Assembly: GCA_026122225.1 (NCBI GenBank)
Contig: JANEZZ010000522.1
Location: forward strand, 1,054,001-1,118,000
DNA from: Heloderma charlesbogerti
Lineage: Eukaryota; Chordata; Lepidosauria; Squamata; Helodermatidae
Length of the DNA stretch: 64,000 nt
Direction of reading: 5' to 3'
Notes under the pieces: generated by a model
Seen by the model: only the letters and a program-made list of their open reading frames with translations
The model's database searches: none
Told to the model about the DNA's origin: nothing
Shown here: positions 15,405 through 62,893 of the stretch, in pieces
How positions within the stretch are numbered: the stretch's first letter is position 1
Layout of the letters: each line of letters begins with the position of its first letter
Position numbers and translations under genes: made by a program

Positions 15405-16227
15405 TAGGGATGTACGAAAGTCACTTACCTTTTCGCAGCTTTGATTCGCGGTGGGGGGGAGGCGCTCCATCCCTCCCCCCGGAATCCTCCCTGTGCCGGC
15501 TCTGCTCTGTGGTGGCTCCACGGAGCTGCTGGCCAGGGCCATCCGCAGCTGGAGTTCCGGCCATGGCCGGCTGCTGCGGCCGCAAATGGCGGCCGCTGTA
15601 GCAGCCATCATTTGCATCCTGCCAGGCTGCCGCGATAGGCTACGTAAGAATATACGTAGCCTATAATGGCAAAGAGCAGGGGCACAAACGGCGGCCGCTA
15701 CGCCGTTTGCGCTGCTGCTCTTTCCGTGATAGGCTACGTAAGTATTTATGTAGCCTATCACGGTAAAGGCAGCTACGCAAATGGCATAGTGGCTGCCATT
15801 TGCGTGGCTGCCTTTACTGTGATAGGCTATGTAAATACTTACATAGCCTATCACGGAAAGAGGAGCGGCACAAATGGCATAGCGGCCGCCGTTTGCGCCC
15901 CTGCTCTTTGCCGTGATAGGCTATGTAAATACTTACGTAGCCTATCACGGCGGCCTGGCAGGACACAAATGGCGGCCGCTACGGCGGCTGCCATTTGCGG
16001 CCACAGCAGCTGGCTGAGAGACCAGGTGCTGCCGCCGCTGCCGGAGCCGCCGGAGCCGCCGCCGGAGCCACCGCTGCCGCCACATCCGCCCCACGTAAGC
16101 TTCGTCCCGGGGGGGATTCCGCGGGGTGGCAGGGGGTGGGAGGCCGTTCCGCCATGGGTTTCGGGGGGCTGAATGCCAGTGCATTCGGCCTCACTGAAAT
16201 CTGTGGCGGAATTCTCCACCATCCCTA
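15405..16227. mobile_element. Palindromic-array hAT-type element, copy 1
   Basis: The terminal bases are TAGGGATG at the left and CATCCCTA at the right. The 8-bp target duplication GGCAATGC is exact (15397-15404 and 16228-16235). Four GATAGGCTAYGTAA-type palindromes sit near 15633-15668, 15725-15762, 15819-15856 and 15912-15950. They alternate with CAAATGGC/GCCATTTG palindromes near 15582, 15690, 15777, 15871 and 15966. The whole of 15605-15985 is also an inverted repeat about a centre near 15790. The left arm (A) has an outward donor AGGTAAGT on the minus strand (15430-15423). The right arm (B) has a decayed ACGTAAGC at 16093-16100, and its ATG has become ATT. It is inserted in the L3-like LINE. 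Confidence 0.93.
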
Positions 16228-16296
16228 GGCAATGCAATTTTTTTTCCTTGCTGCTCTCACTGCCTTTGAATGTACCTGGCCGTAGGCACACACCAG

Positions 16297-16440
16297 GATT
16301 TATAGCAGGTGAAGGCAACCTGGTTCCTTCCAGATGTTTTGAACTACAACTCCCATCAGCCCTGACTATTGGCCACATTGGCTGGGACTTATGGGAGTCC
16401 GTAACATTTGGAGGGCACCAGGTTGCTTCCCCCCTTTCTA
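16297..16440. mobile_element. Fold-back MITE, 'GGCACCAGG' family
   Basis: It starts with GAAGGCAACCTGG and ends with CCAGGTTGCTTCCCCCC, an inverted pair. The centre has ACTACAACTCCCATCAGCC and its imperfect complement. This is one of about ten copies of a short palindromic element in the window. The copy at 28048 shows the 8-bp duplication expected of hAT MITEs. Confidence 0.72.
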
Positions 16441-16462
16441 GAGTCTCCAATGGGGGTGCTGT

Positions 16463-16690
16463 AGTAATTTATTTATTTCATTTATATCCCACCTTTTTTC
16501 CTCTTTGAGGAACCCAAGGTGGTGTATATAATTCTCCTTGTCTCCATTTTATCCTCATAACAACAACCCTGTGAGGTAGGTTGGGCTGTGTCTGTGACTG
16601 ACCCAAAGTCAGCCAGTGAACTTCCATGGCCAAGTGGGGACTAGAACCCCAGCTCCCAGTCCAACACTACACCAAACTGGTAATTGACCA
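16463..16690 (-). mobile_element. MIR-like tRNA SINE with (ATTT)n tail
   Basis: The reverse complement starts with a tRNA-like head (GTGTAGTGTTGG, then GGGTTCTAGTCCCC as B-box). It continues with the MIR-like core ACCTACCTCACAGGGTTGTTG and ends in the CCACCTTGGGTTCC / GGGATATAAATG tail plus ATAAATAAAT. The same family is at 53349-53630 and 59576-59812. Confidence 0.75.
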
Positions 16691-17250
16691 TCTGTTTGAA
16701 TACTTAGTGGGAAGGTGGCCAAGAACCTCCCAGAATGATTACACTTAAGTCCTAGTGGTAGATGTCATGACATCACTCATTACAAAAGTATCATGACCCT
16801 TTATTCAAGCCTAGCAAAGCAGAATTTTAAAATGAATGGATGAGACAGAGCTGCAGGCTCTGGGACCCTCCCACTGTGTTTTCTGAACAATAGCAGAGAG
16901 GATAGAATACGGCCAGTGGTGAAATGGTGCCCGATGGAAGGCTGACTGATGTTCTTTACCATTGATGTGTCTGGTACCTTAATTTTGACTTGAGTTAAAG
17001 GAGCACATTTGAGTGCTCAAGTTCTGCAAGGAAGGTTTAAGCAGTGGCATGTGAGCTAAGTTCAGCTTTCTGACCACAGAAGAAATCCTATTCCTTTAAT
17101 TGCAGGGATGGCCAAGGGAGGTTAGCAATTGTTTGTTGCTTGGGGTGAGGAAGAAACCAGTGCAGGAAGCGGATTTGACTAGATTCTGAAAACAAATTCG
17201 ACAGCTGCACACATGCTGGTTTGAATATCTGGTCCTGTCTCGTCTGACAG

Positions 17251-17367
17251 TCATCATGCATTTATCTGTAGAAGATGCAATTAGGTCCTGGCTGCAGAGC
17301 AATTTGGGGATGCTCTGTTCCAAAAGCAGTAAAAAGATAGAGAGTTATGTGTTCTTCCCATGTCAAG
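17251..17367 (+). CDS. Candidate 117-nt internal exon, gene unknown
   Basis: The acceptor GTCCTGTCTCGTCTGACAG and the donor CAAG|GTAAGA enclose a segment open in only one frame: 2 nt, then 38 codons, then 1 nt. The peptide contains SVEDAIRSWLQSNLGMLCSK and KKIESYVFFPCQ. It looks like globular protein sequence and lies in non-repetitive DNA. It leaves phase 1 and so joins in frame to the candidate exon at 40998-41050 (junction codon GTG). I do not recognise the family. If real, the gene runs on the plus strand across most of the window, and the transposons here sit in its introns. Confidence 0.42.
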
Positions 17368-17374
17368 GTAAGAT

Positions 17375-18815
17375 GTATCAGCCATAGAGACTCCTGTAGG
17401 AAAATATGCATGATTAATATTTTCTCTTAATGGGTGAGATTTAAGGCCAGGCATCATTCAATCCCAGGTCCTAACAATCACTTAGCAATAGTTTATCAGA
17501 AGTTCTGGAGTGGAATTTTGAATAATTTCCCCATTTGTGCTGAGTGTAATGTGCTTCTCCTTGTAAAAGCCATGATGCAATACGGTTACAAATTTCTTCC
17601 ATCATGTGCTTTATTTCCAGCTTCAGGCTTGGCTTAGTCTAGCATAAAGCCAATTCCTATGCTCCCAGAGGTACATAAGTCAAGTGATAGCCCTCTGCAC
17701 AAAAATAAATGCTATCCTTAAAGAATAGAGTGTGGTACTATGCCTTGAAATCCCCTCCCCACCCCTAGGACTATTACAGAAGTGGTTGAAAGAAAGGTAT
17801 TTTTCAGTATATGCTTTCATATAAAAGAATCACTTGCCATAAACACTAACTTTGTGCCACAGGCTATGCCAATCATAAACTGAAAACAACTTCAGATTCA
17901 TGTTTCAAACGTAAAACACTGGATGTGGCTGTTTTTTTGTTTTTACAATGATGATTGAATTAATCATCATTAATTAATAATTCCTCCCACGGCATGGGAG
18001 TTGGGATGGAAGCTCAACCTCATAATCCACTCCTACTTTCTGCCCCCTCTGCCTCTTCCTTCCTAAAGACTGGAGGGTATAATTTGGTTGGATTTCCTGA
18101 AAAAGTATTTTGTTTAATAACAATAGCAATTGGAAAATATCCATCATAATGAGAGTTAAACTGTTCTGGAAATCTGCAATACGAAGACCCAGATATGGTG
18201 TGTAGCACAAGGCTACTTTTTAAATCACCAAAGCAATTCAGAGTCTAACAGAGCGATGCTCCTACACGTCAGTTGCCCAGTGCGCACTAACATCACTTTA
18301 AAATTGACATAGTGTAGTCTGGATCCTGCGCGCTCCCAGCAGCAAAGTTGGGAAGTAAATGGCGCCACACTAAGCAAAAGGCAACATAGCAACAATGGCA
18401 GACACAACCCATGCGTTTATGGTAATACCACCAATGGCCTCTAATCACAGCATGGTATGTCAGTGATGCCTCCACATCACCCATGCATGGCAGCGGGAAG
18501 ACATCTGTATGCCATCACGCCACCACGCAGTCAAGACACAATCCTGAAGACACAATGGTGCCACAGCAGCACAAACAGTGTCAACTGCTGCGGTTCCCCT
18601 AGAATATGTTTTGTAGCTAACATACAGCTCTGCAAACTGAGTTTGGGCCCCCTGATACCATACACAGCCAGCATGCAGCCACCCTTTTTGCAGGGAAACA
18701 CACAGGAACATGCAGGGAAGAAAGTCAAACAGTCCAGTACAATATGCAGCCAGATCACTTGGCGGAAAGCATGTATGGGAAGCCTCCAGGAGACAGGTTT
18801 GAGTCCCACTGGGTG
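17375..18815. other. Unassigned sequence
   Basis: I see no gene or named repeat. A T/A-rich block at 17940-17985 contains ATTAATCATCATTAATTAAT. The part at 18225-18815 has an even base composition and GCC/CAC-rich wording unlike its surroundings, and may belong to an older repeat that continues into the fold-back element at 18822. Confidence 0.4.
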
Positions 18816-18821
18816 AACGTT

Positions 18822-19137
18822 GGGCAGAATCCAACAGGGTGCTCATACGACCTGCCAACTCCATTGTGCAGGCAGCCCCCGTTGCTTGCACAATAGCGAT
18901 TTAGGACTTCCAGGGCAACCCCAAACCAGGCAGGTTGACGGAGCTTGCTGAAGGGAACGTCCAGAATTGAGCAATTCCGTTGCACAAGTAGGATCTACCA
19001 CATACGGGGGGGGGGGGGAATCTCCCTTGTGGATCCTACTTGCACAACGGAATTGGCGGGACCCACTGCTTGTGGAAGGCAACCATCGGGGCAGGCAAGA
19101 ATCAGCAGGGGCATAAGCTCACTGTTGGATTCTGCCC
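18822..19137. mobile_element. Fold-back MITE with GGGCAGAATCCAACAG ends
   Basis: The left end GGGCAGAATCCAACAGGGTG and the right end CACTGTTGGATTCTGCCC are inverted repeats. An inner stem of 24 perfectly complementary bases lies at 18972-18995 and 19032-19055 (CAATTCCGTTGCACAAGTAG and its complement). It is separated by a loop with 13 consecutive G at 19006-19018. No clear target duplication could be identified, so the superfamily is open. Confidence 0.7.
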
Positions 19138-19976
19138 TTTGCCCCTTTGAAGGAAAGGAGCCTTTTGCCAGGGAGGTTGAAGTGAAAAACTAGGATGAGC
19201 CACAACGGAAAACACAACTGCACTTTCACAGGAACAACTATTGTGATGTATTTATTGATCTATTTTATTCAAAGAAATATTTCTTTACCGCCTTTCAACC
19301 ATCATGGGCCATACAAAAATAAGTATATTCGAGGAAAGCTGCATACAAAAACTGTACATTTGGGAAAAGTTGCATAGAAAAATAAATGTGATTTTGTGTG
19401 TGTTTTTAAAACAATAATCCTTTGAAGGCTGATGCAGAAATGGGACAGAATGGACTTGAAAGAGAATGATGCATCTCTCCGTAGGGGGGATGTGCTATGA
19501 GGAACACAATACAAGGCCAGGGTGCGATAGAGCCCCATGCTGTCATCTGAGTTACATGTTAGATGCATGAAGTTAAATATTGCTGTCAGTCTGGTGCGAT
19601 TTGGCCGAGAAGTTAGAATCCCATTCTCTACCTTGGCTCTGAGAGAAGAGCAGAGGGGTGGCATTTGGGGGCTCTCTATTGACCTCTCTGCAAGTGTTTT
19701 GAGCCTTTGACTCATGATGCCTTTTTTGCCGGTGTAACATTATGCTGTCTCCAGGCATTGGACAAAGTAGGGTCCCAACCAAGCTCTGCTCATCTCCTGA
19801 AACACCCTGATGCCACCTATATTTGGCAACTATGCCAGTGGCATTGCACCAGCAGTTGGATGGCATGGCATCGTACAAGCATGTCCTTGGTGACAGGCCA
19901 ATATGGAGTTCCTGATGCCAGGGGATCTTGCGAATCGGCCACCACTGCAGAGGACTTAGAGTATCTCTACACCAGC

Positions 19977-20025
19977 CTAAAATCCTGCATTTAAAACAGG
20001 GCTTTCTGCTTCCGTTTTAAATGCA
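19977..20025. repeat. Short inverted repeat
   Basis: TGCATTTAAAAC and GTTTTAAATGCA form a perfect 12-bp stem with a loop of about 18 bases. No associated gene is visible. Confidence 0.6.
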
Positions 20026-20476
20026 AGATCATGACGGACTCCCTTTACATGGTCTTCCTTCCCGCCCTTTCCCCTTTATTTGAGTCTTCCATATGTTTCA
20101 TAATACAGCCTCTAGATGGTGCTGTGGCCTAGCTCCTCTCATTGCAGGTTTTCCTCTTTTCACAGGGAACTCGGGCGCGGTAATTTGGTAGCTTATCTCC
20201 AATCTTTTAAAGAATGGAAAAAAGGTCATTTACTGAGGGAGACACCCTGGAGGTTGACAACGTCATCTCACCTGCAAACTTCCGTGAGTTACCAATCTCA
20301 ACAGCAGGGCAAAAGCTCAGTGTGAAGGAGCCCTTAGCGTCCTATATATCTTTCCGTCCAGCATCCACAGGATTGCACTGTAATATGTTGGGTTGGATGA
20401 ACATTTGGCTGCCCCCCTCCTATGCTTTAGTTTCTCCATGCAGGGAGAAATGCAAACTGGAGGGTAGGCTGGCAAG

Positions 20477-21442
20477 TAGGGATGGACGAAAGGGACTTAC
20501 CTCGTCCTGCAGCTTGCTTCGCGGTGGGGGGGAGGCGCTTCAGTTCTCCCGCCGAAGTTCAGGCGAGGGGGGGGAGGCACCCCGCCTCGCCTGGCCAAAA
20601 TTCAGGCCGGGGGGGAGGCGCCCCATCCCTCGCCGGCAAAATTCAGGCTGGGTAGGAGCGCCCCGTCTACCCGGCCGCGAAAAAAAAAGTAAAACACACA
20701 CACACCCGTGATAGGCTACGTAACGATTTACGTAGCCTATCACGGCTAGATTTCCAAAGTCAGCCGTGATAGGCTATGTAAATCGTCATGTAGCCTATCA
20801 CGGGTGACTTTGGGAAAAAAAAAAAAAAGCATGTACGCAAATGGCGGCTTCCATGGGGACCGCCATTTGCGTTCCTTATTTTGGCATGTCTAGTCTACGT
20901 AAAGATTTACATAGACTACGGCGAAAATAAGGGCAACGCAAATAGTGTTCCCTTATTTTCGCCGTAGTCTACGTAAATGTTTACGTAGACTAGACATGCC
21001 AAAATAAGGAACGGAAATGGCGGCGCCCCATGGGCACCGCCATTTGCGTACGCGCTTTTTTTTTTTTCCAAAGTCACCTGTGATAGGCTACGTGACGATT
21101 TACGTAGCCTATCACAGCTGACTTTGGAAATCTAGCCGTGATAGGCTACGTAAATCATTACGTAGCCTATCACGGGTGTGTGTGTGTTTTTTTTACTTTA
21201 CTTTTTTTTTTTGCAATGGCGGCGGCGGCAGCTGGTCGGGAAACCGGCCCCCGCCCCTGCTGAACCGCCGCCAAACCGCTGCCAGGACCCGCCGCCGAGA
21301 GGGACATTTGCCGAAGGTAAGTCCCATCCCGGGGGGGGGGGGGCGGGTGGCCGGCGGAGAATTTCCCCAACACTTTCGGGGGGCCGAATGCGTTGGCACT
21401 CGGCCTCCCGAAGATTCGTGGAGAAATTCTCCGCCAACCCTA
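20477..21442. mobile_element. Palindromic-array hAT-type element, copy 2 (most symmetric)
   Basis: The 8-bp duplication CTGGCAAG is exact (20469-20476 and 21443-21450), with TAGGGATGG at the left and CAACCCTA at the right. The interior from about 20690 to 21200 is an almost perfect 500-bp palindrome centred near 20942, symmetric even in its (AC)n/(GT)n and poly-A/poly-T edges. Sub-palindromes lie near 20707, 20763, 20834, 20885, 20957, 21013, 21077 and 21135. The A arm (20477-20690) has about four tandem GGGGGGGAGGCGCC-type units and the donor AGGTAAGT (minus, 20502-20495). The B arm has ATG at 21216 and the donor AGGTAAGT at 21315-21322 (+). Confidence 0.95.
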
Positions 21443-21732
21443 CTGGCAAGCCAGGGATAGCGACCTAGAACCCAAGACACACTTGCCAGTCATACCAGCC
21501 CGAGTCCTGTGAATTCTGATCCACGTTTTCTCCAAATAACCTCAAACACCCCCCAAACAACACAATGTCTGGGGCATTCTGCTCCACTGGGCAGCAAAGA
21601 AAAAGGGAGAAAGACAGAAATGCAGCACAAATTAACATCCTGATGTGAAGCAAGGAAGGGCCACAACTAGCGCACATACAAGCCAACAACATTCAAGGCT
21701 TACTGCAGCGTTATCATCCATACCATGTATAT

Positions 21733-21808
21733 CCATGCACATGCTGGTTGGGGAGAATGGGAGATGTAGTCTAGCACATCTGGAGGGTGCCAGGTTGGGG
21801 AAGGCTGT
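21733..21808. mobile_element. Partial 'GGCACCAGG' fold-back MITE
   Basis: GCACATGCTGGTTGGGGAG, then AGATGTAGTCTAGCAC, then ATCTGGAGGGTGCCAGG match the right half of the family. The left half is missing. Confidence 0.6.
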
Positions 21809-21849
21809 AGCCCCCTGCTGTCCATCTGTAGAGGGGGACCTGGTCTAGG

Positions 21850-22700
21850 CATGTAGGCTGTGAGGAACCCTATGCGCATGGAACATTTCCTTCTACAGAC
21901 ATGCTCCCCAGCACATGGACGGTGGTGGTGCAGCTAGTGGAGTTGCGACAGCAGGGGCAGATCTGGGCTTATACCTCAGAGTTGTCAGCAAATATGCCTC
22001 CCCTTCCCCCTTTGGTGTGAAAGGATGCCTGAGCATAAGGCTTCATGGGAGTTCTAGTGGGCTGAAAGAGAGCCAATTTGCTTTCTACTTCCCATAAAAA
22101 GCCTGTTTATAATTATGAGCAAAGGGCATTGTCTGGTCTGTTTATCAGAGAAAGCACTGAAAGCCATAGAAACAAAACTGAAGGATTTAAGGAGGACAAA
22201 GAAACAGAGTTATGAGAGAGGCCTTTTGTTTGCAAGTTTAAATAGCTGTACGTACGCATCCATTTTGCAGGGAAGATGGTGAGCTGCTGCTTGTTGCTTG
22301 AAAGCAATGCCTGTGGCACCTGTGTGCGTGTCTTCCTCACACCGTGTACTCGGCGACACCTGCAAACCCACCCTCAGCATGCTGAGCAGCGTGCATTAGT
22401 GCAACTGCCAGCCATTTCCATTGGAGTTCCAAATTTTGCTGCTTACAGGACGGGCTTTGAAATCTGGAGGGAAAACACTTAAGGCAGAATTGGCCTGCAC
22501 AGTTGAGGCAAACGGTTCTTTTCTGAATCAAAACTGGAAGTTCGCTTCAGACTTATCCTGCAGTTCAGATCTGTATTCTACACAGAAGCTGTGTGTGTGT
22601 GCACATGTGAGGAAGAAAAAGGCCAGCAGGAAAAGGATTAAGAACCCCCGCCCCCAGCCATCTCTCCCCTTCTTGAAATCACACAGCACAATTAGTGTGT
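21850..22700. other. Unassigned sequence
   Basis: No gene or repeat could be recognised between the partial MITE and the third palindromic element. A short GT tract immediately precedes that element. Confidence 0.4.
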
Positions 22701-22704
22701 GTGT

Positions 22705-23565
22705 TAGAGATGGCAGAGAATTCTGCCACGGATCTCGGTGAGGCCGAATGCCAGTGCATTCGGCCCCCCGAACTCCGTGGTGGAACGGACTGCCACCCCC
22801 CACCCCACCCCGCGGATCCCCCCCTGGGACGAGACTCACCTGGGGCGGATCTTCCGGGTGGCGGCGGCTCCGGCAGCTGGTCTTCCGACCGGCTGCTGCC
22901 GCCGCCATTTCCACTCTTGTAAAAAAAAAAAAAAAGACGTGATAGGCTACGTAAAGATTTACATAGCCTATCATGGCTGGGTGGGTTAAAAACACACAAA
23001 AAACCACGTATATTGCGTTCCTTATTTTTGCCCTCTTAATCTACCTAAATATTTACGTAGACTATGATGGCAAAAATAAAGGGGAACGCAAATAGCATAG
23101 CGGGCGCTATTTGCATCCCTTTTTGATTCCCCGTTTTAGCCTACGTAGCCTACATAGGCTAAAACGGGGAATCAAAAAGGGACACAAATAGCGCCCGCTA
23201 TGCTATTTGCGTTCCCCTTTATTTTCGCCGTCATAGTCTATGTAAATATTTACGTAGATTAAGAGGGCAAAAATAAGGAATGCAAATGGCGGCGGCTGTA
23301 GCCACCGCCATTTGCGTACGTGGTTTTTTTGTTTTTTTACCCAGAGCCCTCCGTGGCTGGAAATCCGGCTGCGGACGGCTCTGGCCTGGCTGGGCCTGGC
23401 CGGCTGCTCTGCGGAGCTGCCGCGGAGCACAGCCGGCCGTGGAGGATTCCGGGGGGGAGGAACGGAGTGCCTCTCCCCCAGCGAGGATTCCGGGGGGAGG
23501 GACGGAACGCCTCCCCCCCACCATCAACATAATCTGCGAAAGGTAAGTGACTTTTGTACATCCCT
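22705..23565. mobile_element. Palindromic-array hAT-type element, copy 3
   Basis: The left terminus is TAGAGATGG and the right is CATCCCT. The flanks are GTGTGTGT on both sides (22697-22704, 23566-23573), consistent with an 8-bp duplication but inside a GT repeat and so weak alone. It is oriented opposite to copies 1 and 2, with the B arm at the left. B arm, minus strand: ATG at 22908, 23 open codons (MAAAAAGRKTSCRSRRHPED, then PPQ), then the donor AGGTGAGT (22841-22834). A arm: the donor AGGTAAGT at 23541-23548 (+). The palindrome array spans 22933-23335 with a centre near 23135. Its arm sequences are closest to copy 6. Confidence 0.9.
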
Positions 23566-23599
23566 GTGTGTGTGTGTGTGTGTGTGTAAAGCACTGCTG

Positions 23600-34287: not shown

Positions 34288-35156
34288 TAGGGACGTCAGA
34301 GAATTTCTCCACGAAGCTCCGGGAGGCCGAATGCCAACACATTCGGCCCCCCGAAATTGGTGGAGAAGCAGTCCGCCCCCCCGCCCCCCCCCCGGGATGG
34401 GACATACCTTCAGCAAATGTCCCTGGTGGCGGCGGCTCCCGGTGGTGGCGCGTCGGCGGCGGCGGTGTGGCGGCGGCGGCCGGTCTTCCGACGGGCTGCT
34501 GCCGCCACCATTTCCAAGTAAAAAACAAAACAAAACAACAAACATGATAGGCTACGTAAAGATTTACATAGCCTATCACAGCTAGATTTTCAAAAAACAC
34601 CGTGATAGGCTACGTAAATCTTTACGTAGCCTATCACTGCTGACTTTGAAAAAAAAAAAAAAGCGCGTACGCAAATGGCGGCGCCCATGGGCACCGCCAT
34701 TTGCGTTCCTTATTTTGGCACAGGTAGTCTACGTAAATATTTACATAGACTATGGCGAAAATAAGGGCAACGCTAAAATAAGGGCTATTTGCGTTGCCCT
34801 TATTTTCGCTGTAGTCTACGTAAATATTTACGTAGACTACCCGTGCCAAAATAAGGAACGCAAATGGCGGTGCCCATGGGCGCCGCCATTTGCGTACGCA
34901 CTTTTTTTTTTTCCAAAGTCAGCCGTGATAGGCTACGTAAAGATTTACGTAGCCTATCACGGCTGACTGCAGGCCAGGGACGCAAATGGTGGCGGCTACG
35001 GCCGCCGCCATTTGCGTCCCGGCAGGAGAAGAACTTTCATGGCCAGAGAGGCGGGGCGCTGCCCCCCGGCCAGAATTTCGGGTGGAGCAACGGAGCGCCT
35101 CCCCCCCACCGTGAAGCAAGCTTCGGGATCAGGTAAGTGACTTTCGTCCATCCCTA
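34288..35156. mobile_element. Palindromic-array hAT-type element, copy 4
   Basis: The 8-bp duplication ATTTTCAA is exact (34280-34287 and 35157-35164), with termini TAGGGACG and CATCCCTA. The B arm is at the left. On the minus strand ATG is at 34511 and the frame MVAAAARRKTGRRRHTAAAD runs almost to the donor AGGTATGT (34409-34402), but a stop falls two codons before it. The A arm at the right has the donor AGGTAAGT at 35131-35138 (+). Palindromes near 34544, 34600, 34670, 34724, 34808, 34860 and 34922 form a nested inverted array. The last, near 34980-35020, is a CAAATGGTGGC/GCCGCCATTTG unit outside the symmetric core. Confidence 0.94.
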
Positions 35157-36695: not shown

Positions 36696-36828
36696 GGGTC
36701 AGCAACCTGGTGCCCTCCAGATGTTTTGGAGCTCAACTCCCATCATCCTGAGCTGGCATGGCCATTTGGGGATTATGGGAGTTGCAGTCCAACACATCCG
36801 GAGGGCACCAGGTTGGGGAAGGTCATTC
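36696..36828. mobile_element. Fold-back MITE, 'GGCACCAGG' family
   Basis: GTCAGCAACCTGGTGCCC at the left pairs with GGGCACCAGGTTGGGGAAG at the right. The centre holds CAACTCCCATCATCC and ATGGGAGTTGCAGTCC. Flanking duplication unclear. Confidence 0.75.
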
Positions 36829-38990: not shown

Positions 38991-39041
38991 TATTCATGGG
39001 AACAGGAGGGAGGAAATTGGGTGTGTGTGTCACATGGATAC

Positions 39042-39282
39042 TTGGCAATACCCAGTGGAGGCAGGTGGCTCTGATCTCGGTGGAGCAGTGAATCCATTCT
39101 GGGTTTCAGTCAGAACTGGCCAGAACAGTTCTAAAGGAGCTATCCAAAATGCTGATTCCTATCTCCAAAATGGGTTCAGCACCTTGGATAGCTCCTTTAG
39201 GGTTTGGCTGGTTCTGACTGAAACCCAGAATGGATTCACAGGCCACCAAAATCAGAGCCACCCGCTACCACTGGCAATCCCC
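39042..39282. mobile_element. Near-complete palindromic MITE (arms about 110 bp)
   Basis: The left arm reads GGTGGCTCTGAT, then TGAATCCATTCTGGGTTTCA, GTCAGAACTGGCCA and AAAGGAGCTATCCAA. The right arm is its reverse complement (TTGGATAGCTCCTTTAGG ... TGAAACCCAGAATGGATTCA ... ATCAGAGCCACC), with only small differences and a loop of about 35 bases. The element consists almost wholly of a hairpin. Outer ends (GGCAATACCCAGTGG / CCACTGGCAATC) are inverted as well. Confidence 0.82.
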
Positions 39283-39289
39283 AAATATT

Positions 39290-44549: not shown

Positions 44550-45553
44550 TAGGGATGTATGAAACACCTGGTTTTGTCCAGGGACATCTGTAGTGGGGGG
44601 GAGGCGCTCCATCCCTCCTCCAAAATCCTCGACGGGGGGAGAGGTGATCCGTTCTTCCCCCCCGGAATCCTGCCCGGCCAGCTCCACTCCGCAGCCAGGC
44701 CGGAAAGCCACCGGCTGGGCCAACCCGCAGTGGGGCCTCCAGCTGCTGCTGGGCTGGTACGGACGCAAATGGTGTCCTGAGTAGGGGACACCATTTGCAT
44801 CCCTATGGTAGCCCGTGATAGGCTACGTAAATATTTACGTAGCCTATCACGGCAAGCAAAAAAACCCCAACAGCGTATGCAAATGGTGGCAGCTATGGCG
44901 GCTGCATTTATGTTCCCTTTTTTTCACTGTTTTAGCCTACGTAAATATTTACGTAAGCTATTACGGCAAAAAAAAAGGGGAACACAAATGGCGTAGTGGG
45001 CGCCATTTGCGTTCCTTTTTTCCCCTCGCTGCTTTAGACTATGTAAATATTTACGTAGGCTATTATGGCAAAAGGAAAAAGGAATGCAAATAGCGCCCAC
45101 TACGCCATTTGCGTTCCCCTTTTTTCCCCACCTTAATAGCTTATGTAAATATTTACATACGCTAAAACAGCGAAAAAAAGGGAACGCAAATGGCGGCCAC
45201 CGTAGCTGCCGCCATTTGTGTACGCTGTTTTTTTTTTTGGCTTGCCGTGATAGGCTATGTAAATACTTATGTAGCCTATCACAGCCTCCGCAGGGACGTA
45301 AATGGTGTCCCTGCATTAGCCGTGATAGGCTACGTAATTATTTACGTAGCCTATCACGGCTATGATGAGGAAGCGAATGGCAGCTGCAGACACGGTCGCC
45401 ATTCGCAAGTCAGCACGGACGGCAGCAGGTAAGTGCTCCGTTTCGTGTGCCTTTCGTGGGGGGGGGGCTTCGTTCCGCCATGGATTTCAGGGGGCCGAAT
45501 GCACTGGCATTCGGCCTCACCGAGATCTATGGCAGAATTCTCTGACATCCCTA
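44550..45553. mobile_element. Palindromic-array hAT-type element, copy 5 (inside BovB)
   Basis: The termini are TAGGGATG and CATCCCTA. The flanks CTTGTAAA (44542-44549) and GTTGTAAA (45554-45561) match at 7 of 8 bases. BovB ORF2 continues across the insertion point. The A arm at the left has lost its donor (AGGTGTTT at the expected site). The B arm at the right has a perfect AGGTAAGT at 45427-45434 (+) but its ATG exon is not recognisable. Palindromes lie near 44816-44852, 44932-44966, 45030-45065, 45136-45170, 45246-45283 and 45320-45361. Between them stand CAAATGG units. Of the seven copies it is the largest and the most divergent in its arms. Confidence 0.93.
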
Positions 45554-46304: not shown

Positions 46305-46645
46305 GCGTGGGCCGCGGTGGCTTAGTGGTTAAGACGCTGAACTGCAGACTGGAAGGTCGGCAGGTCAGCAGTTCGAGACCCGAGTGCTGCGTGACGGAGT
46401 GAGCTCCCGTCTTCAGTCCCAGCTTCTGCCAACCTAGCAGTTCGAAAGCAAGAAATTGCAAGTAGATAAATAGGTACCGCCTCGGCGGGAAAGGTAACAG
46501 CGTTCCGTGCACCTTGGTGTTCAGTCATGCCGGCCACATGACCACGGAAGCGTCTTCGGACAGCGCTGGCTCTTCGGCTTAGAAACGGGGATGAACACCG
46601 CACTCTAGAGTCGGTCACGACTGGTTGGGGACACCTTTACCTTTT
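46305..46645 (+). mobile_element. Sauria SINE, full length, inside BovB
   Basis: The tRNA-related head has an A-box-like TGGCTTAGTGGTT at 46318 and a B-box AGTTCGAGACC at 46370-46380. The conserved body includes TACCGCCTCGGCGGGAAAGG and GCCGGCCACATGACCACGG. The end reads AGTCGGTCACGACTGG, then ACCTTTACCTTTT. A 14-bp target duplication TACTGCTTTTCCCA flanks it (46291-46304, 46646-46659). Sauria SINEs are known to be mobilised by BovB-type LINE enzymes, and this one has landed in a BovB copy. Confidence 0.93.
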
Positions 46646-46794
46646 TACTGCTTTTCCCACCCTTTTGTTGACTATGAGTGCTACTGCATTTCTTCGAAGG
46701 GATTTTTGCCAACAGTAGTAGATATAATGGTCACCTGAATTAAATTCGCCCATGCCTGTCCATTTTAGTTCACTGCTTCCCAAGATGTCGATGT

Positions 46795-50983: not shown

Positions 50984-51980
50984 TAGGGATGTCAGAGAAT
51001 TCCACCACGGATCTCGGTGAGGCCAAATGCCAGTGCATTCAGCCCCCCGAAATCTGTGGCAGAACGGCCTGCCCCCCCACCCCCCCACAGATCCCCCCCT
51101 GAGACGAGACTTACCTGGGGCGGATCTTCCGGGCGGCAGCGGCTCCGGCAGCGGCTCTGGCGGCAGCTCCGGCAAAGGCGGCGGCGGCGGCCGGTCTTCT
51201 GACCGACTGCTGCTGCCGCCATGTCCAGGCTTGTGGGGAAAAAAAAAAAAGTGATAGGCTACGTAAAGATTTACGTAGCCTATCATGGCTAGGTTTTAAA
51301 AAAAAGAAAAAAAGACGTGATAGGCTACGTAAATCTTTACGTAGCCTATCATGGTTGGGGGTGTGTTTAAAAAAAAAAAACGCGTACGCAAATGGTGGTG
51401 GCTACGGTCGCCGCCATTTGCGTTCCTTCTTTTTGGCCATCTTAATCTATGTAAATATTTACGTAGACTATGACGGAGAAAATCAAGGGGAACATGAATA
51501 GCGTAGCAGGCGCTAATTGCGTCCCTTTTTCATTCACCATTTTAGCCTATGTAAATCTTTACATAGGCTAAAACGGGGAATCAAAAGGGGACGCAAATGG
51601 CGCCCGCTACGCTATTTGTGTTCCCCTTGATTTTCGCCGTCAAAGTCTACGTAAATATTTACTTAGATTAAGACGGTAAAAAGAAGGAATGCAAATGGCG
51701 GCAGCAGTAGCCGCCGCCATTTGCGTACACGTTGTTTGTTTGTTTGTTTTTACCCAGAGCCCTCCGCAGCCGGAAATCCAGCTGCAGATGGCTCTGGCCT
51801 GGCCGGGCCTGGCCAGCTGCTCTGCGGAGCTGCCGCGGAGCACAGCTGGCCGTTCGAGGATTCCGGGAGGAGGAACGGAGCGCCTCCCCCCCAGCCAGGA
51901 TTCCGGGGGGAGGGACGGAATGCCTCCCCCCCCACCATCAACATAATCCACGAAAGGTAAGTCACTTTTGTACATCCCTA
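50984..51980. mobile_element. Palindromic-array hAT-type element, copy 6 (inside L1)
   Basis: The 8-bp duplication GTCAAACT is exact (50976-50983 and 51981-51988), with termini TAGGGATG and CATCCCTA. The B arm is at the left. On the minus strand, ATG at 51222 opens 36 codons (MAAAAVGQKTGRRRRLCRSC ... RPEDPPQ) ending exactly at a perfect donor AGGTAAGT (51116-51109). The A arm at the right has the donor AGGTAAGT at 51955-51962 (+). Nested palindromes lie near 51251, 51316, 51385, 51445, 51545, 51645 and 51695. This is the best-preserved pair of arms in the window. Confidence 0.95.
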
Positions 51981-52181
51981 GTCAAACTGTAATTGATGTG
52001 ACATTATACGCCACACTTCTCTAACTGCCAAAATTGTGGGAGGAGCTCTGTCTGTCTTAATATGCCGAGAACCTAATGCCATCCATTTAAAGAGAGGCTC
52101 CAGACAAGAAGATTCCAACACTGACGGAACATCTAATCTAAGTGGAAAAGACCAAAGTTTAGTACAAGTCAGCAAATAGCC

Positions 52182-52437
52182 CCAGTGGTACATTGCTAAA
52201 TCCAGAAAACCGAACCAGCCTTCATTAATTGGAAGTTGCATCCTTTTCAAAGATATTCTTGGTGGAAAGGACCCCAGAAGAATTTACAGAACAAAGCATT
52301 AAGTTTACATCTATCATCTATTTAAACTCTGTGTATACCATTCCCATTCTCCCCATGAATATCTTTGAAAAGGATGCAACTTCCAATTACCGAAGGCTGG
52401 TTTGGTTTTCCGGATTTAGCTATGTACCATTGGGCCT
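52182..52437. repeat. Inverted repeat at the L1 5' junction
   Basis: Arms 52182-52262 and 52357-52437 are about 80 bp each and inverted (AAAAGGATGCAACTTCCAAT shared), separated by 94 bp of L1 coding sequence. Both arms encode the same L1 block (KRMQLPI.EGWFGF.DLAMYH) in opposite directions. This fits a 5'-inversion event with overlap, or a second head-to-head copy. Confidence 0.8.
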
Positions 52438-55150: not shown

Positions 55151-55159
55151 CATAATGGG

Positions 55160-55520: not shown

Positions 55521-55529
55521 TCTCTTTGA

Positions 55530-56115: not shown

Positions 56116-56123
56116 GGATGCAG

Positions 56124-56508
56124 TGGGTTGGATCCAGATTTAGATGCATGCAAGTGGGCTGCATGCAGACTTCCCTGCCCCCTCCTCCCCATGGCAGCCC
56201 CTCTAAAAATGGTACAAAGATAGCTGTGTGGTTCTGCGGCATGGGGATGCTGTGGTGTGGGTGGGTGGAGGGGCTCGGGGAGGAGGGGATCCCCCCAATA
56301 TGGGCAGAAATACTTTCCTTGAGAGGAGCTCTGATCACCAAAGTTGCCTCTGCCCAATGGGGTGATCTCCCCCGTCTCCCTGCACCAAAGCCAACCCCAT
56401 TCAGCGGGGTCCCTGACCCGCTGTGTAGTCTTTTTTGGGCTGCTGTGAGGAGAAGGAGGCATGGAAGTCCACCTCCACCAGCACATGTCTAAATCTGGAT
56501 CTGACCCA
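56124..56508. mobile_element. MITE with TGGGTTGGATCCAGATTTAG ends
   Basis: The left end TGGGTTGGATCCAGATTTAG and the right end CTAAATCTGGATCTGACCCA are inverted repeats of about 20 bp. The interior is GC-rich and uncoded. A half-copy of the same end appears at 40450-40475. No clear target duplication; the superfamily is undetermined. Confidence 0.68.
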
Positions 56509-56519
56509 ATATGTTTAGA

Positions 56520-58735
56520 AATGAGAGAAAATGTGTTTAGAAACAGATATTTAATACATATTTATCTACACATTTTCATGCAGGTTTTATAATTTGATAA
56601 TTCACACATTAATATGGACACAGAGTGGAAGGGACATATGAATTAACACCTGCAAAATTGACACAGATCATAAATAGACTGATCCATTCCTATCACCGTG
56701 GTCAGGGGCAATGTGGACTGGGACCACAGTTGTGGAGGGGGGTTAGTCCTTTCTCCCATGTCATTTTCCCAATGAAAATTGTCCCTCATTGTAACAATAT
56801 GAAAGAGCCACTAGATGATGTCTGGGTTTGTTGTGATTCCTGGGAAGAGACAGGAACTAGTAAAGGACAACACCCACTTCCTTTGGCCTGAGGAGAGTAA
56901 GAGGCCAAAGACCGAGAGAGCTCTGTGAAACTTTTCCTTAAATCAAACTTAAAGTTGGTTTAGAAGGCAGAGTTTGTTTGATGTTGTAAGCGATCCTACA
57001 ATTGTGATGCATCCATGTAACCATATTTCTTCCTTAATAGGGTAAATACAGGGGGGATGGTTTTCACTGACCAAATTGTATGGGCCAGGGGAGGGATAAC
57101 AACGCCACAGCCCAAATCTAAATCCTCCCAGCTGATTGCAAAAATGAAAGGAGCAGGAGATCTGATCATGGATTACCATGGTTTCATCTAGTCTGGCTCT
57201 GAGATCTAGGCCTAAGTTTGTAATAACTGGTTCCCAAGGAGCTGATAGTTTTAGCAATGTAACCAAACACCTCTCCATCCTGCCAAAACGTAATTGCTTT
57301 TTCATGTCACAGTGAAAACAAAGTAAGGGGAGGTGCAGAGAAGTATATAACCCTATTTAAGCAGTCAACTACATAGAATGTTATTCATAACATACAGCAG
57401 CAGTCAGCCACTTCAAGTAGAGAGTTTCGAACTGAAACTAACGTAATGAAAAATTGTTTCAGGGTTTTTGATGAACACAGCAAATACCCAGTTTAAGCAA
57501 GGAGGGTATATGTAGACTGCAATGAACATCGTTACAATGCAACATTATGCATAATATAGAAGTCCATGTGCTAGTTAATATGACAGACCTATGAAAAATG
57601 TGTAATTGTTTCAAATTGTTTTAATTTTTTTAAATAAAAGCTTTAAAATTGTTTTAAGTTTTGATTGTAAGTGCGATGGCCCTGTTTAGGTCAAAAGGCA
57701 ATTCAAAAATTTATAAATACCTTTGGTTTTACATCGTGTAGATCTTCAACGCAAGAACACAGATTTCATTGGGAGGCATAAGATTTTATTTGGGAGGCAC
57801 ATAATGTTTAGCAAGTTCCTAATGCAATTTGAAACAAACAATACCAACAAACAAAAATGTATTTTGAGGGCATTTGTTGTTTATTTTGTTTTTTAGATTA
57901 CCTACTTTGTTGATTAGTTTATTTTAAAACCTCATAATAAAAATAGCAATATTACCAACATATGTCAAACCATCCCTTAAAAAAAAAGCAGCAAAATGAA
58001 TTTATGTGTTTGTTTATGCTACATATGAACCAATAATGCAAAGACAGGTAACAGTGCCAATTTAGATTCCATGTGTACCTCCTATTATATTACAACATTA
58101 TTGAAACACCTCCCTCCAAAAGCTATGTATTTGTCCACATTCCTACCACATGTTCCCAGAGAAAACCACCAGCATGTTATGGACAGATATGGAAAGATGT
58201 ATTTAGATAATTAGAAATAAATCTTAAACCCCTGATGAGCTTCTGTGGATGGATCAATCAATAAATAAATATTAATATACTGAACCTCCTGTGATTCCCG
58301 GGAACTGTAATTGAAGTTCTTAATGTCTATGTTTTGCTAGTTGAAAAAATTGTATATTATTTTCTATATATTCACTGATAATATAGTAAACATGCAATTT
58401 GAAACTCCATAAAAATAATGTTAAAAAAATCCCACACCTATCCATGCTCGACGTCTGGATGTCAGGGTCGGAGCCAGTGGCACATGCAGTATTAGAGGCG
58501 TGGCCAGCTGTGTAGATAATTTCTCAATAGGGCTATGAATGAATAGTTTCTGTACAGGGCAATAGGACTAATCACAGATGGTTTGAAATATGGGGCTGCA
58601 TGCAACTAGATTGGCCACTGCCCCTCTTCAATGTGCCTTGCTTCTTCATCTTTGACAGAACATTTTTGGGAGCAATTATCAAAAGGAAAATGCCGAGGTG
58701 ATTCACCGACCTGCCGAACTGCTCTGTCAGAGTTA
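56520..58735. other. Unassigned A/T-rich sequence
   Basis: No gene recognised. Around 57600-57720 (GTTTTAATTTTTTTAAATAA, then AATTTATAAATAC) it looks like a LINE 3' tail without an identifiable body. Confidence 0.4.
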
Positions 58736-58744
58736 AAGGTATCA

Positions 58745-59290
58745 AGTCATAGAGCTGGAAGGGACTTTGTAGGCTGGGCATCCCCAACCTTTTTGGACCT
58801 GTGGGCACATTCAGGAATTTGAGAAACTGCTGTGGCCACCACCACAAAATGCCTCCCATGGTGGAAGTGGCTAGTCACATAATGGCTGTCATGGGGGCCT
58901 GGCTAGTCAAAAGGGAGCTGAAGAGGTGGTGGGGGAGAGAAATAGCAAGGTTGGAGGCTGGGAGGGAGACAAAGGGGTAGAGGGGAGAGAAAGAGCAAGA
59001 CTAGAGGCTAGAGAGAAAGAAGACTGCCCTGACATTTTCCAAGATTTTTCTAAAAAAAATTTTTTTAAGGGGGCAGGGAGGGGAGAGCTTTGTGGGTACC
59101 ACTGGAGATCTCTGAGGTCACCATGGCACCCATGGGTGCTGCATTGGGGACCCCCTGATGTAGGCTATCTAGTCCAATCCCTTGACCAATACAGGATATC
59201 CGGAGTTAGAACATCCCCACCAGATGGCTGTCCAGCCTCTGCTTGAAGATACCTAGCAAGGAAGACCTCACCCCCACACCTCCAGAAGGA
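58745..59290 (-). mobile_element. CR1 3' end interrupted by a hAT-type MITE
   Basis: The left part (TCATAGAGCTGGAAGGGACT) and the right part (ATCTAGTCCAATCCCTTGAC ... GGCTGTCCAGCCTCTGCTTG) together give the reverse complement of a CR1 3' end. Between them sits the MITE at 58776-59158. Confidence 0.75.
58776..59158. mobile_element. hAT-type MITE inside CR1
   Basis: The left end GGGCATCCCCAACCTTTTTG and the right end TGCATTGGGGACCCCCTGA are imperfect inverted repeats. The 8-bp duplication TGTAGGCT is exact (58768-58775 and 59159-59166). CR1 sequence continues on both sides. No coding capacity is visible; the interior is purine-rich (GGGAGAGAAAGAGC). Confidence 0.85.
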
Positions 59291-59344
59291 ACTAGGGTGC
59301 CAATCCAGCCACCACCAGGGGTAGCTAATGTAGGTAGGTAGCAG

Positions 59345-59465
59345 GTACATCTGGTGTGGCTCTCCAGATGTTGTTGGACTACAGCTCCCAGCATTCCTCG
59401 CTACTGGCCACACTGCTAGGGCTTATGGGACTTAGAGTCTAGCAACATTTGGATGGCAACAGCCC
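59345..59465. mobile_element. Fold-back MITE, 'GGCACCAGG' family, diverged
   Basis: CTCCAGATGTTGTTGGACTA and CAGCTCCCAGCATTCC match one arm; GGCTTATGGGACTTAGAGTC and CAACATTTGGATGGC match the other. The terminal parts have decayed. Confidence 0.6.
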
Positions 59466-59575
59466 CCCCACCCTGAGATACACATTTGCCCGGGAGTAAG
59501 TCCTCTTTAATTCAATGGGGCCTACTTCTGAGTGGACACACACACATAGATAATTGTATTGGAAACTATATAACC

Positions 59576-59812
59576 AACATGGAGTAGTGGTCAGAGTGTC
59601 AGACTAGAACCTGGGAACCCAGGTTGAAATCCCCACAGCCACGAAGTTTATGAGGTGACCTTGGACCAGTTGCTCTCTCTCAGGCTAATTTACCTTGCAG
59701 GTTTGTTGTGAGCTTAAAGGGGGAGGGGGATGATGTACACTGCACTGCCTTGAGCTCTTCAGAGGAAGGGAGGGATACAAGTGTACTTAAATGAAACATA
59801 AAATAATATCAT
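59576..59812 (+). mobile_element. MIR-like tRNA SINE, diverged
   Basis: GGAGTAGTGGTCAGAGTGTC, then a B-box-like GGTTGAAATCCCC, TTACCTTGCAGGTTTGTTGT and GAGGAAGGGAGGGATACAAG run in the family order on the plus strand. More diverged than the copies at 16463 and 53349. Confidence 0.65.
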
Positions 59813-59943
59813 GCTTTATATCAGGTGAGTGTTGTGAGAATAAAAAACGATCGTAATGTGGTTAACATAGTAAAATGCTATAGACATGGTTATTGATAGT
59901 GATGATAGTAACAAGTAGGGATATCTGTCCTTTGAAAATCCAG

Positions 59944-60348
59944 GGCTGAATCTACACATAGCAGTTATACCATTTATCATACCATTTATCATAACTATTG
60001 GTGCCCATTGGTGTCATGTGTACCAATAGTTATGATAACAGTATGATAATAGTCTCCTGCCAACCTAGCACTCCTGCCAACCTAGCACTCCTGCCAACCT
60101 AGCAGTTCGAAAGCAAGAAATTGGAAGTAGATAAATAGGTACCGCCTCGGCGGGAAAGGTAACAGCGTTCCGTGCACCTCGGTGTTCAGTCATGCCGGCC
60201 ACATGACCACGGAAGCGTCTTCGGACAGCGCTGGCTCTTCGGCTTAGAAACGGGGATGAACACCGCACTCTAGAGTCGGTCACGACTGGTTGGGGACACC
60301 TTTTACCTTTTTATGATAATAGTATAACTGCTATGTGTAGATTCAGCC
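59944..60348. mobile_element. Fold-back MITE with GGCTGAATCTACACATAG ends
   Basis: The left end GGCTGAATCTACACATAGCA and the right end TGCTATGTGTAGATTCAGCC are perfectly inverted. The flanks are CAG on both sides (59941-59943 and 60349-60351), suggesting a 3-bp target duplication. An inner stem (ATCATAACTATTGGT / ACCAATAGTTATGAT) lies at about 59984-60035. A truncated Sauria SINE interrupts it. Confidence 0.8.
60054..60311 (+). mobile_element. 5'-truncated Sauria SINE with a tandem 17-mer at its start
   Basis: It contains the SINE body from CCAACCTAGCAGTTCGAAAG to ACACCTTTTACCTTTT, without the tRNA head. At the 5' end CTCCTGCCAACCTAGCA is repeated nearly three times (60054-60105). The 12-bp duplication TATGATAATAGT (60042-60053 and 60312-60323) marks the insertion site inside the fold-back MITE. 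Confidence 0.9.
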
Positions 60349-60837
60349 CAGCCCTTTTGGGGCCCCATGGATCCCCACTGCCTGCCCGGCTCAGTTGCGT
60401 TCACGGGCCTCAGGCTTTTCCTGAAATCCAGGGACTTTTTGTGTGTCTTTTCTTTTTTTTCTTGTCAATAGAAAGTTGCACAAATTGTGGGTGCGATTTG
60501 TGTAGTTTGGGAAATTCCGGCCATAATTTGTGCAAATTTGCCTGCAATTTGCTCGATGTTCTGTTGACGAGAAAAAGAGAGAGAAAAAAAAGTTGGGTCA
60601 GCTTGCAATTTGGCCAAGAAGATCAAGTCAAGCCAGCTCGCAGGTCAGTGAGTTGAAGTTTGGGCTGAGATGTTGAAAGTTGGTGAACTCCACCCTCCAG
60701 ACAGATTCCTCCAACATCCCTAATAACAATGGACTCTCCTTGAAAGCTGAGGCTGCAAAGTGCCATATGCTGGTTTGGGAGAGAGCCCTACCAAAATCAA
60801 TGGAACTCTTGGGAAATCTTTGCAGCCCCGGAACAAT

Positions 60838-60975
60838 CTTCTCCAACCTGGTGGCCTCCAGATATGTTGGACTACAGCTCCTATCACTCCCAGGGCAATG
60901 GCCCTGCTATCTGGGGATGATGAACATTGCAGTCCAACTCTATTGGAGGGTGCCAAGTTGGGGAAAGCTGCCCTA
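60838..60975. mobile_element. Fold-back MITE, 'GGCACCAGG' family
   Basis: TTCTCCAACCTGGTGGCC at the left and GGGTGCCAAGTTGGGGAAAG at the right are inverted. GACTACAGCTCCTATCACTCC and TGCAGTCCAACTC are the family's interior words. Confidence 0.72.
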
Positions 60976-61210
60976 GAATGATTCTGGCATGAAAACTTTG
61001 CTTCTCCTGTCCTGCGTCACCAACATTTTTATTTAAAAAGTGAGTGTTAATGAAACAGAAGCTATCCCTGGAAGTAAGAGGAAAGTTTTTTTTAAAAAAA
61101 AATTCCCATGCAAATGACATATCCTCTTGACTTGCAGAATCAGACATGCATTGGATATTGAAGATTAGCCACTGATTACAGTACTTTTTCCATGTCTGTT
61201 GTACCAATAA

Positions 61211-61316
61211 GGGCACAATCCTATGCCAGTTTAGATGAAAAAAAACACCCCCAACTCCCAGCATTCCCCAGCCAGCCATGCTAGCTGGGTGTCTAAACAT
61301 GCATAGGATTGCACCC
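61211..61316. mobile_element. 106-bp fold-back MITE flanked by TAA
   Basis: The left end GGGCACAATCCTATGCCAGT and the right end GCATAGGATTGCACCC are inverted. TAA stands on both sides (61208-61210, 61317-61319), matching the TWA duplications of PIF/Harbinger-type elements, although three bases are weak evidence. It shares its ends with the 10386-10794 element. The middle holds TTTAGA/TCTAAA and CCAGCCAGCCATGCTAGCTG. Confidence 0.65.
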
Positions 61317-61975
61317 TAAAACGATTAAAAGGGAGCAAGCATTTCTGCTCCCCCCTCCGCACTCTCTGTATGCTCTGTTCTGGGTTAACAACTATTATGA
61401 CTAAAGTAAGGAAACGCTAGACTCTAAGGTCAAAGTTAAGCAGAATGCAAAGGTGAGGGACTGATAATACATGAGACTGTAGCTGAATATTTATCCACCG
61501 GGCAGGGACAACATGTGAGGCACAGTGCTGGTGAAAGGTGAGCGGCTGAGACTGTGTGCACATGAGATTGGAGCTCTCTTGTTTGCTCACAGGGTGGGCA
61601 GGGGCAGTGCAGAGGCCCAGGGCTCGTGGGAGGGGAGATGGTAAATAGAACGTGGAGCACGCTTGCCATTGAGATGGCACAGATTAATCCACAGCAAGAT
61701 ATATTCCCAGGACTTCATTTTACTTTATTCCTTGCTGCACCAGAAGCGGAAAACTTGCTATATACTCAGTGTCTTAGTGATAAATAGGTTGTGCAAGAAC
61801 ATTTTTTTTCCAGTTTGGAATCCCGTTTGTCTTCATTACTGAAAACCATGTATGTTTTTCTTTGTCATTCAGTTTGGGCAACCAGTCCAGATCTTTCAGT
61901 ATTGGACTGATGTGATCATGACACTATGGCATGCACCAGTTATCTAATGGGCAGTCAGTGTGAGTGCCTACTCAC

Positions 61976-62003
61976 CCCACCCCACCCCACCCCACCCCAC
62001 CCC
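61976..62003. repeat. (CCCCA)n pentanucleotide tract
   Basis: About five and a half ACCCC units. Confidence 0.9.
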
Positions 62004-62286
62004 ATGGAAATAAAAAAAGTGTGTTGGAGTAATTGAGAGTACAGAGGATAGAGCAGGAACTGAGAGGCAGGAGGAAGGACTGAGTCCTACGACACCATTC
62101 CCTGACTATTGTAGGTTCATCTATTCAAAGGTATCCAAGCATGTAGTGGAAATTGCTAAGCTGCAAGCTTACTCAGGAGATTCATCAACTAGCGCTTAAG
62201 GTGATGAATTGGTTGGGGTCAATTTTAATCAGTGCAGCTGCATTCTTCTGCATTCTTCCTTATTTCTGGAGGTATTTGTTTCTTAT

Positions 62287-62893
62287 TAGGGATGTATGAA
62301 AGTCACTTACCTGATCCCGAAGCTTAATTCACGGTGGGGGGGAGGCGCTCCGTCCCTCCCCCCAAAATTCTGGCCGGGGGGGAGGCGCCCCGCCCCTCCG
62401 GCCGCGAAACCTCCTTTCCTTATTTCCCTTATTTTTGCGTTCCCCTTATTTTCGCCATAGTCTACGTAAATGTTTACGTAGACTACGCATGCCAAAATAA
62501 GGAACGCAAATGCGTAGTACATTTCCATTTGCGTACGCACTTTTTTTTCCCCCCAAAGTCAGCCGTGATAGGCTACGTAAACATTTATGTAACCTATCAC
62601 GGTGTTTTTTAAAAATCTAGCCGTGATAAGCTACGTAAATCTTTATGTAGCCTATCACATTTGTTCGTTTGTTTTTTTAACTTGGAAATGGTGGCGGCAG
62701 CAGCCAGTCGGAAGACCGGCCGCCGCCGCACCGCCGCCTGAGCCACCGCCGCCAGGGACATTCAAACAAGGTAAGTCCCGTCCCGGGGGGGTGGCGGGGG
62801 GGTGGCAGACCATTTCTTCACCAATTTCGGGGGGCCGAATGCGCTGGCATTCGGCCTCCCCGAGATTCGTGGAGAAATTCTCTGACATCCCTA
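62287..62893. mobile_element. Palindromic-array hAT-type element, copy 7 (internally shortened)
   Basis: The 8-bp duplication TTTCTTAT is exact (62279-62286 and 62894-62901), with termini TAGGGATG and CATCCCTA. Arm A at the left has the donor AGGTAAGT (minus, 62312-62305). Arm B at the right has ATG at 62688, a frame that stops after 17 codons (MVAAAASRKTGRRRTAA), and the donor AGGTAAGT at 62769-62776 (+). Only three palindromes of the GATAGGC/GTAGTC type remain (near 62455, 62565, 62622). Much of the left half of the array is deleted, so the element is about 260-400 bp shorter than the others. Confidence 0.94.

Follow-up and report, generated by a model that had tools for sequence, protein, structure and literature searches.

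The window examined here is the whole 64,000 bp stretch of Heloderma charlesbogerti DNA from contig JANEZZ010000522.1 (assembly GCA_026122225.1, positions 1,054,001 to 1,118,000 of the forward strand). Between positions 15405 and 62893 of this window, seven related short elements of 607–1004 bp each were identified by a pairing scan and by inspection; they are designated below by their first position and are listed in Table 1. Six copies were returned by the scan, whose criterion was a pair of TAGGGATG/CATCCCTA-like ends bordered by matching 8-mers, and copy 22705 was added by inspection. Altogether the elements covered 6,128 of the 64,000 bp (9.6%), in agreement with the initial annotation of this DNA, in which seven elements had been counted as nearly 10% of the window. 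Apart from these seven copies, blastn detected no further piece of the family in the window (E ≤ 1e-4). With a probability of about 0.82, we interpret the copies as separate insertions of one non-autonomous hAT family of the Ac type, with a central palindrome corrected in a concerted manner.

Ends and Target Duplications

Both termini corresponded exactly to TAGGGATG/CATCCCTA in four of the seven copies. Copy 20477 ended with CAACCCTA, copy 34288 started with TAGGGACG, and both ends of copy 22705 had diverged (Table 1). The termini announced in the initial annotation were therefore present in all seven copies as a type, and exact at both ends in just these four. The perfect terminal repeat between end A and end B measured 5–9 bp in six copies and was absent (0 bp) from copy 22705, in which the first base differs; within a copy, 8–12 of the first 16 bases matched between the two ends.

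An exact duplication of 8 bp flanked five of the copies, and among lengths of 2–12 bp, 8 was the only exact length there. Copy 44550 was flanked by an 8 bp duplication with one mismatch. Copy 22705 lies in a (GT)n microsatellite in which duplication lengths of 3, 5, 7 and 9 fit too, so that its duplication, exact but repetitive, is uninformative. Among 400,000 random position pairs situated 600–1009 bp apart, an exact 8 bp match was found at a rate of 1.5e-5, and a match with at most one mismatch at a rate of 5.3e-4.

The consensus target of Ac-type hAT elements is nTnnnnAn, as opposed to nnnTAnnn for the Buster type. A T was present at position 2 of six of the seven targets and an A at position 7 of four, the same counts as those reported initially. 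In the six informative sites, excluding the microsatellite copy, 9 of the 12 bases at these two positions agreed with the Ac consensus (binomial p = 8e-4, for a small sample). The Buster-type TA at positions 4–5 was seen in none of the seven sites.

Table 1. Position of the seven elements and of the donor-like sites at their two ends (window coordinates).
Feature	Position	Strand	Length (bp)	Target duplication	Palindrome arms	Remarks
Copy 1	15405..16227	+	823	GGCAATGC on both sides	15511-15786 / 15794-16072	end A left
Copy 2	20477..21442	+	966	CTGGCAAG	20680-20937 / 20947-21210	
Copy 3	22705..23566	-	862	undecidable	22982-23148 / 23150-23343	diverged ends TAGAGATG/CATCCCTG; in GT microsatellite
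Copy 4	34288..35156	-	869	ATTTTCAA	34600-34780 / 34786-34962	
Copy 5	44550..45553	+	1004	(C/G)TTGTAAA	44785-45047 / 45050-45311	in minus-strand BovB long interspersed nuclear element
Copy 6	50984..51980	-	997	GTCAAACT	51371-51555 / 51558-51741	in rejoinable frame, L1-like by eye
Copy 7	62287..62893	+	607	TTTCTTAT		without large palindrome; best self-complementary pair 62565-62610 / 62611-62658
End A donor-like site CAG/GTAAGT	62305..62313	-				18 nt from tip; 6/7 copies; others start at 15423, 20495, 23540, 35130, 51954
End B donor-like site AAG/GTAAGT	62768..62776	+				117-129 nt from tip; 5/7 copies; others start at 21314, 22834, 45426, 51109

Insertion Sites and Origin of the Copies

Compared by blastn (E ≤ 1e-3), the 14 flanks of 500 bp were mutually dissimilar, and the check for segmental duplicates proposed with the initial annotation thus revealed no shared flanking sequence. 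Once copy 44550 and one duplication were removed, a minus-strand frame of 165 codons stayed open across the junction and read as BovB. This is a clean empty site: copy 44550 entered a pre-existing BovB copy. Similarly, removal of copy 50984 rejoined a 125 amino-acid frame across the junction. Its appearance suggests an L1-like sequence, named by eye; a PDB search with this frame gave no support for L1, with one match at chance level (E 0.63). Next to this copy, at 52178–52437, an inverted repeat of 85 nt (91%, 90 nt gap) seems to derive from L1-like sequence duplicated in inverted orientation. No joined frame was recognised at the other five insertion sites. CR1-like pieces in the window, with BovB and a probable tRNA-type short interspersed nuclear element, are in keeping with a squamate reptile as host. 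Insertion after older repeats, claimed previously for L3, BovB and L1, was confirmed for BovB and is suggested for L1, and was not shown for L3.

The short matching ends, the 8 bp duplications, the unrelated flanks and the BovB empty site together argue for separate cut-and-paste insertions. The presence of the seven copies within 48 kb could point instead to a spread by segmental duplication, a scenario rejected by the flank comparison and the empty site; the duplications moreover differ from site to site, and we attribute a negligible probability to this origin. Foldback-like long inverted repeats and duplications of 7 or 8 bp characterise Galileo, an element of the P superfamily, according to PMC4168063, where the long repeats are terminal and the target is GTATTAC-like. 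In the present copies the terminal repeats are short (perfect match of at most 9 bp), the long palindrome is internal and a GTATTAC-like target was found in none of the seven duplications, which makes membership of the P superfamily very improbable. The Ac-type hAT placing is supported by the duplications, the ends, the size and the target bias. An 8 bp duplication, terminal repeats in the range of 5–27 bp in six of seven copies, a length below 4 kb and an Ac-type target bias were found, to be compared with the 5–27 bp terminal inverted repeats and the length under 4 kb given for hAT elements in PMC3517528. The copies also resemble miniature inverted-repeat transposable elements (MITEs), being short, present in several copies, with unrelated flanks and without recognised coding sequence in the part of the frames that was scanned. 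Ten frames of the window were compared to Pfam, and a reverse transcriptase was detected in two of them (one below the cut-off) with no match in the other eight. A transposase provided in trans probably mobilised the copies, through cut-and-paste chemistry.

Alignment of the ends (85 + 180 bp) showed identities of 57.8–89.2% across the copies, which fell into several groups. Copies 22705 and 50984 formed a pair (89% identity, tree support 0.644). Copy 34288 grouped with 62287 (87%) and 20477 (82%), with a support of 0.999 for these three, and copies 15405 and 44550 stood apart in the tree of the ends with no useful support. The hAT family is best filed as comprising several subfamilies, judging from these alignments. 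The proposal of one non-autonomous hAT family in the initial annotation is therefore upheld by the duplications, ends, target bias, flanks and empty site, with "one family" to be qualified by this subdivision.

The Central Palindrome

Six of the seven copies contain a near-perfect central palindrome spanning 362–562 bp, with arms of 167–279 nt, an identity of 86–96% (gaps uncounted) and a spacer of 1–9 nt. Copy 62287 has just a 94 bp self-complementary pair. The z-scores of DNA folding ranged from -13.9 to -43.3 in the seven copies (15 dinucleotide shuffles each), copy 62287 being the least extreme. The arms are assembled from small palindromic units, some around TACGTAAATATTTACGTA and others around GCAAATGGCG, and some motifs were concentrated in the elements, with 33 of 33 window occurrences of TACGTAAA, 27 of 31 of GCAAATGG and 19 of 19 of AAATGGCGG, the latter expected 0.2 times from shuffles. 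No structured RNA of an Rfam family reached the gathering score within the window. In copy 15405, long stop-free frames cover positions 15660–16169 (plus strand, 170 codons) and 15240–15920 (minus strand, 227 codons); they hold a recurring VIGYV-type peptide without Pfam match, and are probably a by-product of the repeat. A search of viral_contigs and genome_contigs with one of the palindrome patterns gave no exact match, a result of little information as these are viral and prokaryotic collections. Among the literature matches listed, no title or start of abstract described this hAT-like palindrome family.

Four-way alignments of the arms were scored for five of the 15 possible pairs among the six palindrome-bearing copies, the pairs not being independent. 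Differences common to both arms of one copy were called copy-specific, and those common to the same arm of two copies arm-specific. In non-CpG columns, the ratio of copy-specific to arm-specific differences was 5:0 for 20477/34288 (cross 0), 3:0 for 22705/50984 (cross 1), 12:2 for 44550/50984 (cross 0), 19:0 for 44550/22705 (cross 1) and 28:0 for 15405/44550 (cross 0). When all columns were taken, the values were 7:0 (cross 1), 5:1 (cross 1), 17:5 (cross 1), 27:2 (cross 2) and 35:4 (cross 3), in the same order. Distances over the inner 185 bases agreed with concerted arms for 20477/34288 (0.034–0.040 within copies, 0.068–0.085 between them). The two arms of each palindrome thus appear, from these comparisons, to evolve in concert.

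One central module is common to copies 22705, 50984 and 44550, and another to copies 20477 and 34288. These shared modules lead us to prefer arm-to-arm correction over a repeated new formation of the palindrome in each copy. The arms may have been corrected against each other during the multiplication of the family, possibly by template copying on a cruciform or fold-back structure, perhaps in the repair following excision. New copies would then start near perfect and decay in place, fastest at CpG sites.

CpG Content and Decay of the Arms

The CpG observed/expected ratio was 0.86–1.10 inside the elements, as compared to 0.25 outside, and the GC content of the elements was 51–61%. Changes between arms were weighted towards CpG. 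In the six arm pairs, 57 of 225 CpG sites had changed versus 46 of 1,004 others, a pooled ratio of 5.5 (2.5–10.8 per copy). In eight control repeat pairs from the window, 41 of 180 CpG sites had changed versus 188 of 2,678 others, a ratio of 3.2 (2.8–5.4 per pair). A ninth control pair, at 73.6% identity, fell under the 75% limit and was excluded. The eight include one self-palindrome, and three of them are the mutual comparisons of a single set of three copies. The comparison involves small numbers and presumes near-perfect arms at insertion. On the same assumption, the non-CpG differences of 2–9% between arms correspond to about 1–4.5% change per arm since insertion.

The elements show no sign of germline CpG protection, since their arm CpGs decay, relative to other sites, at least as fast as those of the control repeats; the idea of a germline-protected CpG island is not supported by this control. 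Sequence and youth, rather than protection, best account for the CpG content of the elements.

The most similar control pair corresponds to two CpG-rich repeat copies of about 226 bp, 98% identical, at 46423–46647 and 60088–60313, presumably a tRNA-type squamate short interspersed nuclear element. Two further repeats were seen in the window. An imperfect self-palindrome of about 250 bp at 39038–39288 (78%), dissimilar to the seven elements, is perhaps another MITE. The inverted repeat of 55 nt at 36703–36815 (82%) starts with CAACCTGGTGCCCTCCAGATGTTTTGG, belongs to a type common in squamates, and is possibly a short hairpin MITE.

Outward Donor-Like Sites

With a general splice-donor table and a threshold of at least 11 bits, 21 donor-like sites were found in the window, 11 of them inside the 6,128 bp of the elements. 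Shuffled elements contained a mean of 0.5 such sites and a maximum of 3 (60 shuffles). All 11 faced outward (positions in Table 1), and no inward-facing site of at least 10 bits existed in the elements. Copy 44550 has no end A site; its end B site is kept in place despite strongly different surrounding sequence. Weaker forms exist at end B of copy 34288 (AGGTATGT) and of copy 15405 (a poor ACGTAAGC). Acceptor-like sites, searched with a simple pattern, were limited to one each in two of the seven copies. ATTAAA was absent from the elements, with 5.7 expected and a count this low in 1 of 200 shuffles. AATAAA was mildly low (2 versus 5.8 expected, a level reached in 22 of 200 shuffles), and the GC box GGGCGG was not enriched in them (9 versus 11.5 in shuffles). 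From ATGG(C/T)GGC to the end B donor, the phase was 0 in two copies and 2 in four, with stops in three of the six, and copy 44550 lacks such a start. A conserved coding first exon at end B was rejected on these grounds.

Two readings of these sites, both compatible with the hAT explanation, can be considered. Subterminal hAT repeats sit inverted at both ends, and the donor-like sites may be transposase-binding repeats of this kind (approximately GACTTACCT, directed inward at each end) matching the splice consensus by chance. The inverted arrangement in most copies suits this possibility; the unequal distances from the tips, with one site per end, fit it less well, and two of the three changed end B forms (AGGTGAGT and AGGTATGT) still look like usable donors, a weak argument given the few changes. 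In the other reading, each copy would act as a mobile promoter working in both directions, each of its ends supplying a short first exon and a donor able to splice into the host sequence alongside. The excess and uniformly outward orientation of the sites, the constancy of the end B site in copy 44550, the high CpG ratio, the scarcity of ATTAAA and AATAAA, and the restriction of AAATGGCGG to the elements, a motif that we take to resemble the core of a YY1 site, are in its favour. It is opposed by the fast CpG decay of the arms, the ordinary GGGCGG content, the non-coding nature of the would-be exon, the missing end A site of copy 44550 and the general nature of the donor table. Binding repeats explain the motif equally well, and we rate them higher, at slightly under even odds, and consider the promoter unlikely. 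A still bolder combination seems a little less probable again: as a mobile, orientation-independent promoter and exon trap, the hAT family would spread two outward first-exon/donor units around a palindrome whose near-perfection is maintained by conversion between its arms, and would give every insertion site a potential new transcript to either side.

Discussion

Several points weigh against the interpretation of the copies as Ac-type hAT insertions with concertedly corrected palindromes. The duplication of copy 22705 gives no information on hAT membership, and no transposase domain was found with Pfam in the three element-overlapping frames scanned (two of copy 15405 and one overlapping copy 44550). 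PMC11008031 gives 15 bp as typical of hAT terminal inverted repeats, a perfect length reached by no copy. As for the arms, just five non-independent pairs were scored, four of them with a shared centre; in the fifth, 15405/44550, the centres differ and the arms align poorly. One arm of copy 22705 has lost or replaced a stretch, which spoils the alignment, and the distance of 0.135 within this copy over the inner 185 bases brings no agreement. Copy 50984 disagrees, with 0.090 within the copy and 0.076–0.085 to arm A of 22705. Selection for arm pairing would also leave the same pattern as conversion.

The family can be compared with other systems. Maize Ac/Ds elements have (C/T)AGGGATG-type ends and 8 bp duplications, both of which are common to the present family; Ac encodes its own transposase and bears AAACGG-type subterminal repeats. 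The sea-urchin TU elements are comparable modular foldback-forming elements. The human palindromic AT-rich repeats at 11q23 and 22q11 are near-perfect over several hundred base pairs, at single AT-rich loci, whereas the palindromes described here are carried by a mobile family. According to PMC3517528, Mar and Vege are AT-rich hAT MITEs of Drosophila, non-coding, of 610–884 bp, with terminal repeats of 11–12 bp and 8 bp duplications, and Mar targets the Buster-type nnnTAnnn. The present elements are similar in size, in their short terminal repeats and 8 bp duplications and in lacking recognised coding sequence, and differ by their GC and CpG richness, their giant central palindrome and their targets. 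Galileo, as portrayed in PMC4168063, is likewise modular and foldback-forming, and a secondary insertion in one of its repeats can enter both, a sign of arm-to-arm copying; the long repeats of such Foldback-like elements are the termini themselves.

The hAT part of these elements is ordinary, and the unusual part is the interior, namely a large palindrome with seemingly co-evolving arms and paired outward donor-like sites. Neither the concerted arms nor the outward donors figured in the initial annotation. If neither the concerted arms nor the use of the donors holds genome-wide, the family would amount to a conventional hAT MITE, peculiar in its interior. If the donors are used, it would represent a natural, dispersed two-way gene trap, in which an element without recognised coding capacity gives first exons to host genes. 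Instability is the general expectation for long palindromes, and yet this hAT-like family brings palindromes of such size to new sites, with arms that appear to co-vary. A genome rich in copies would allow the rate of palindrome-arm correction and the frequency of breakage to be measured.

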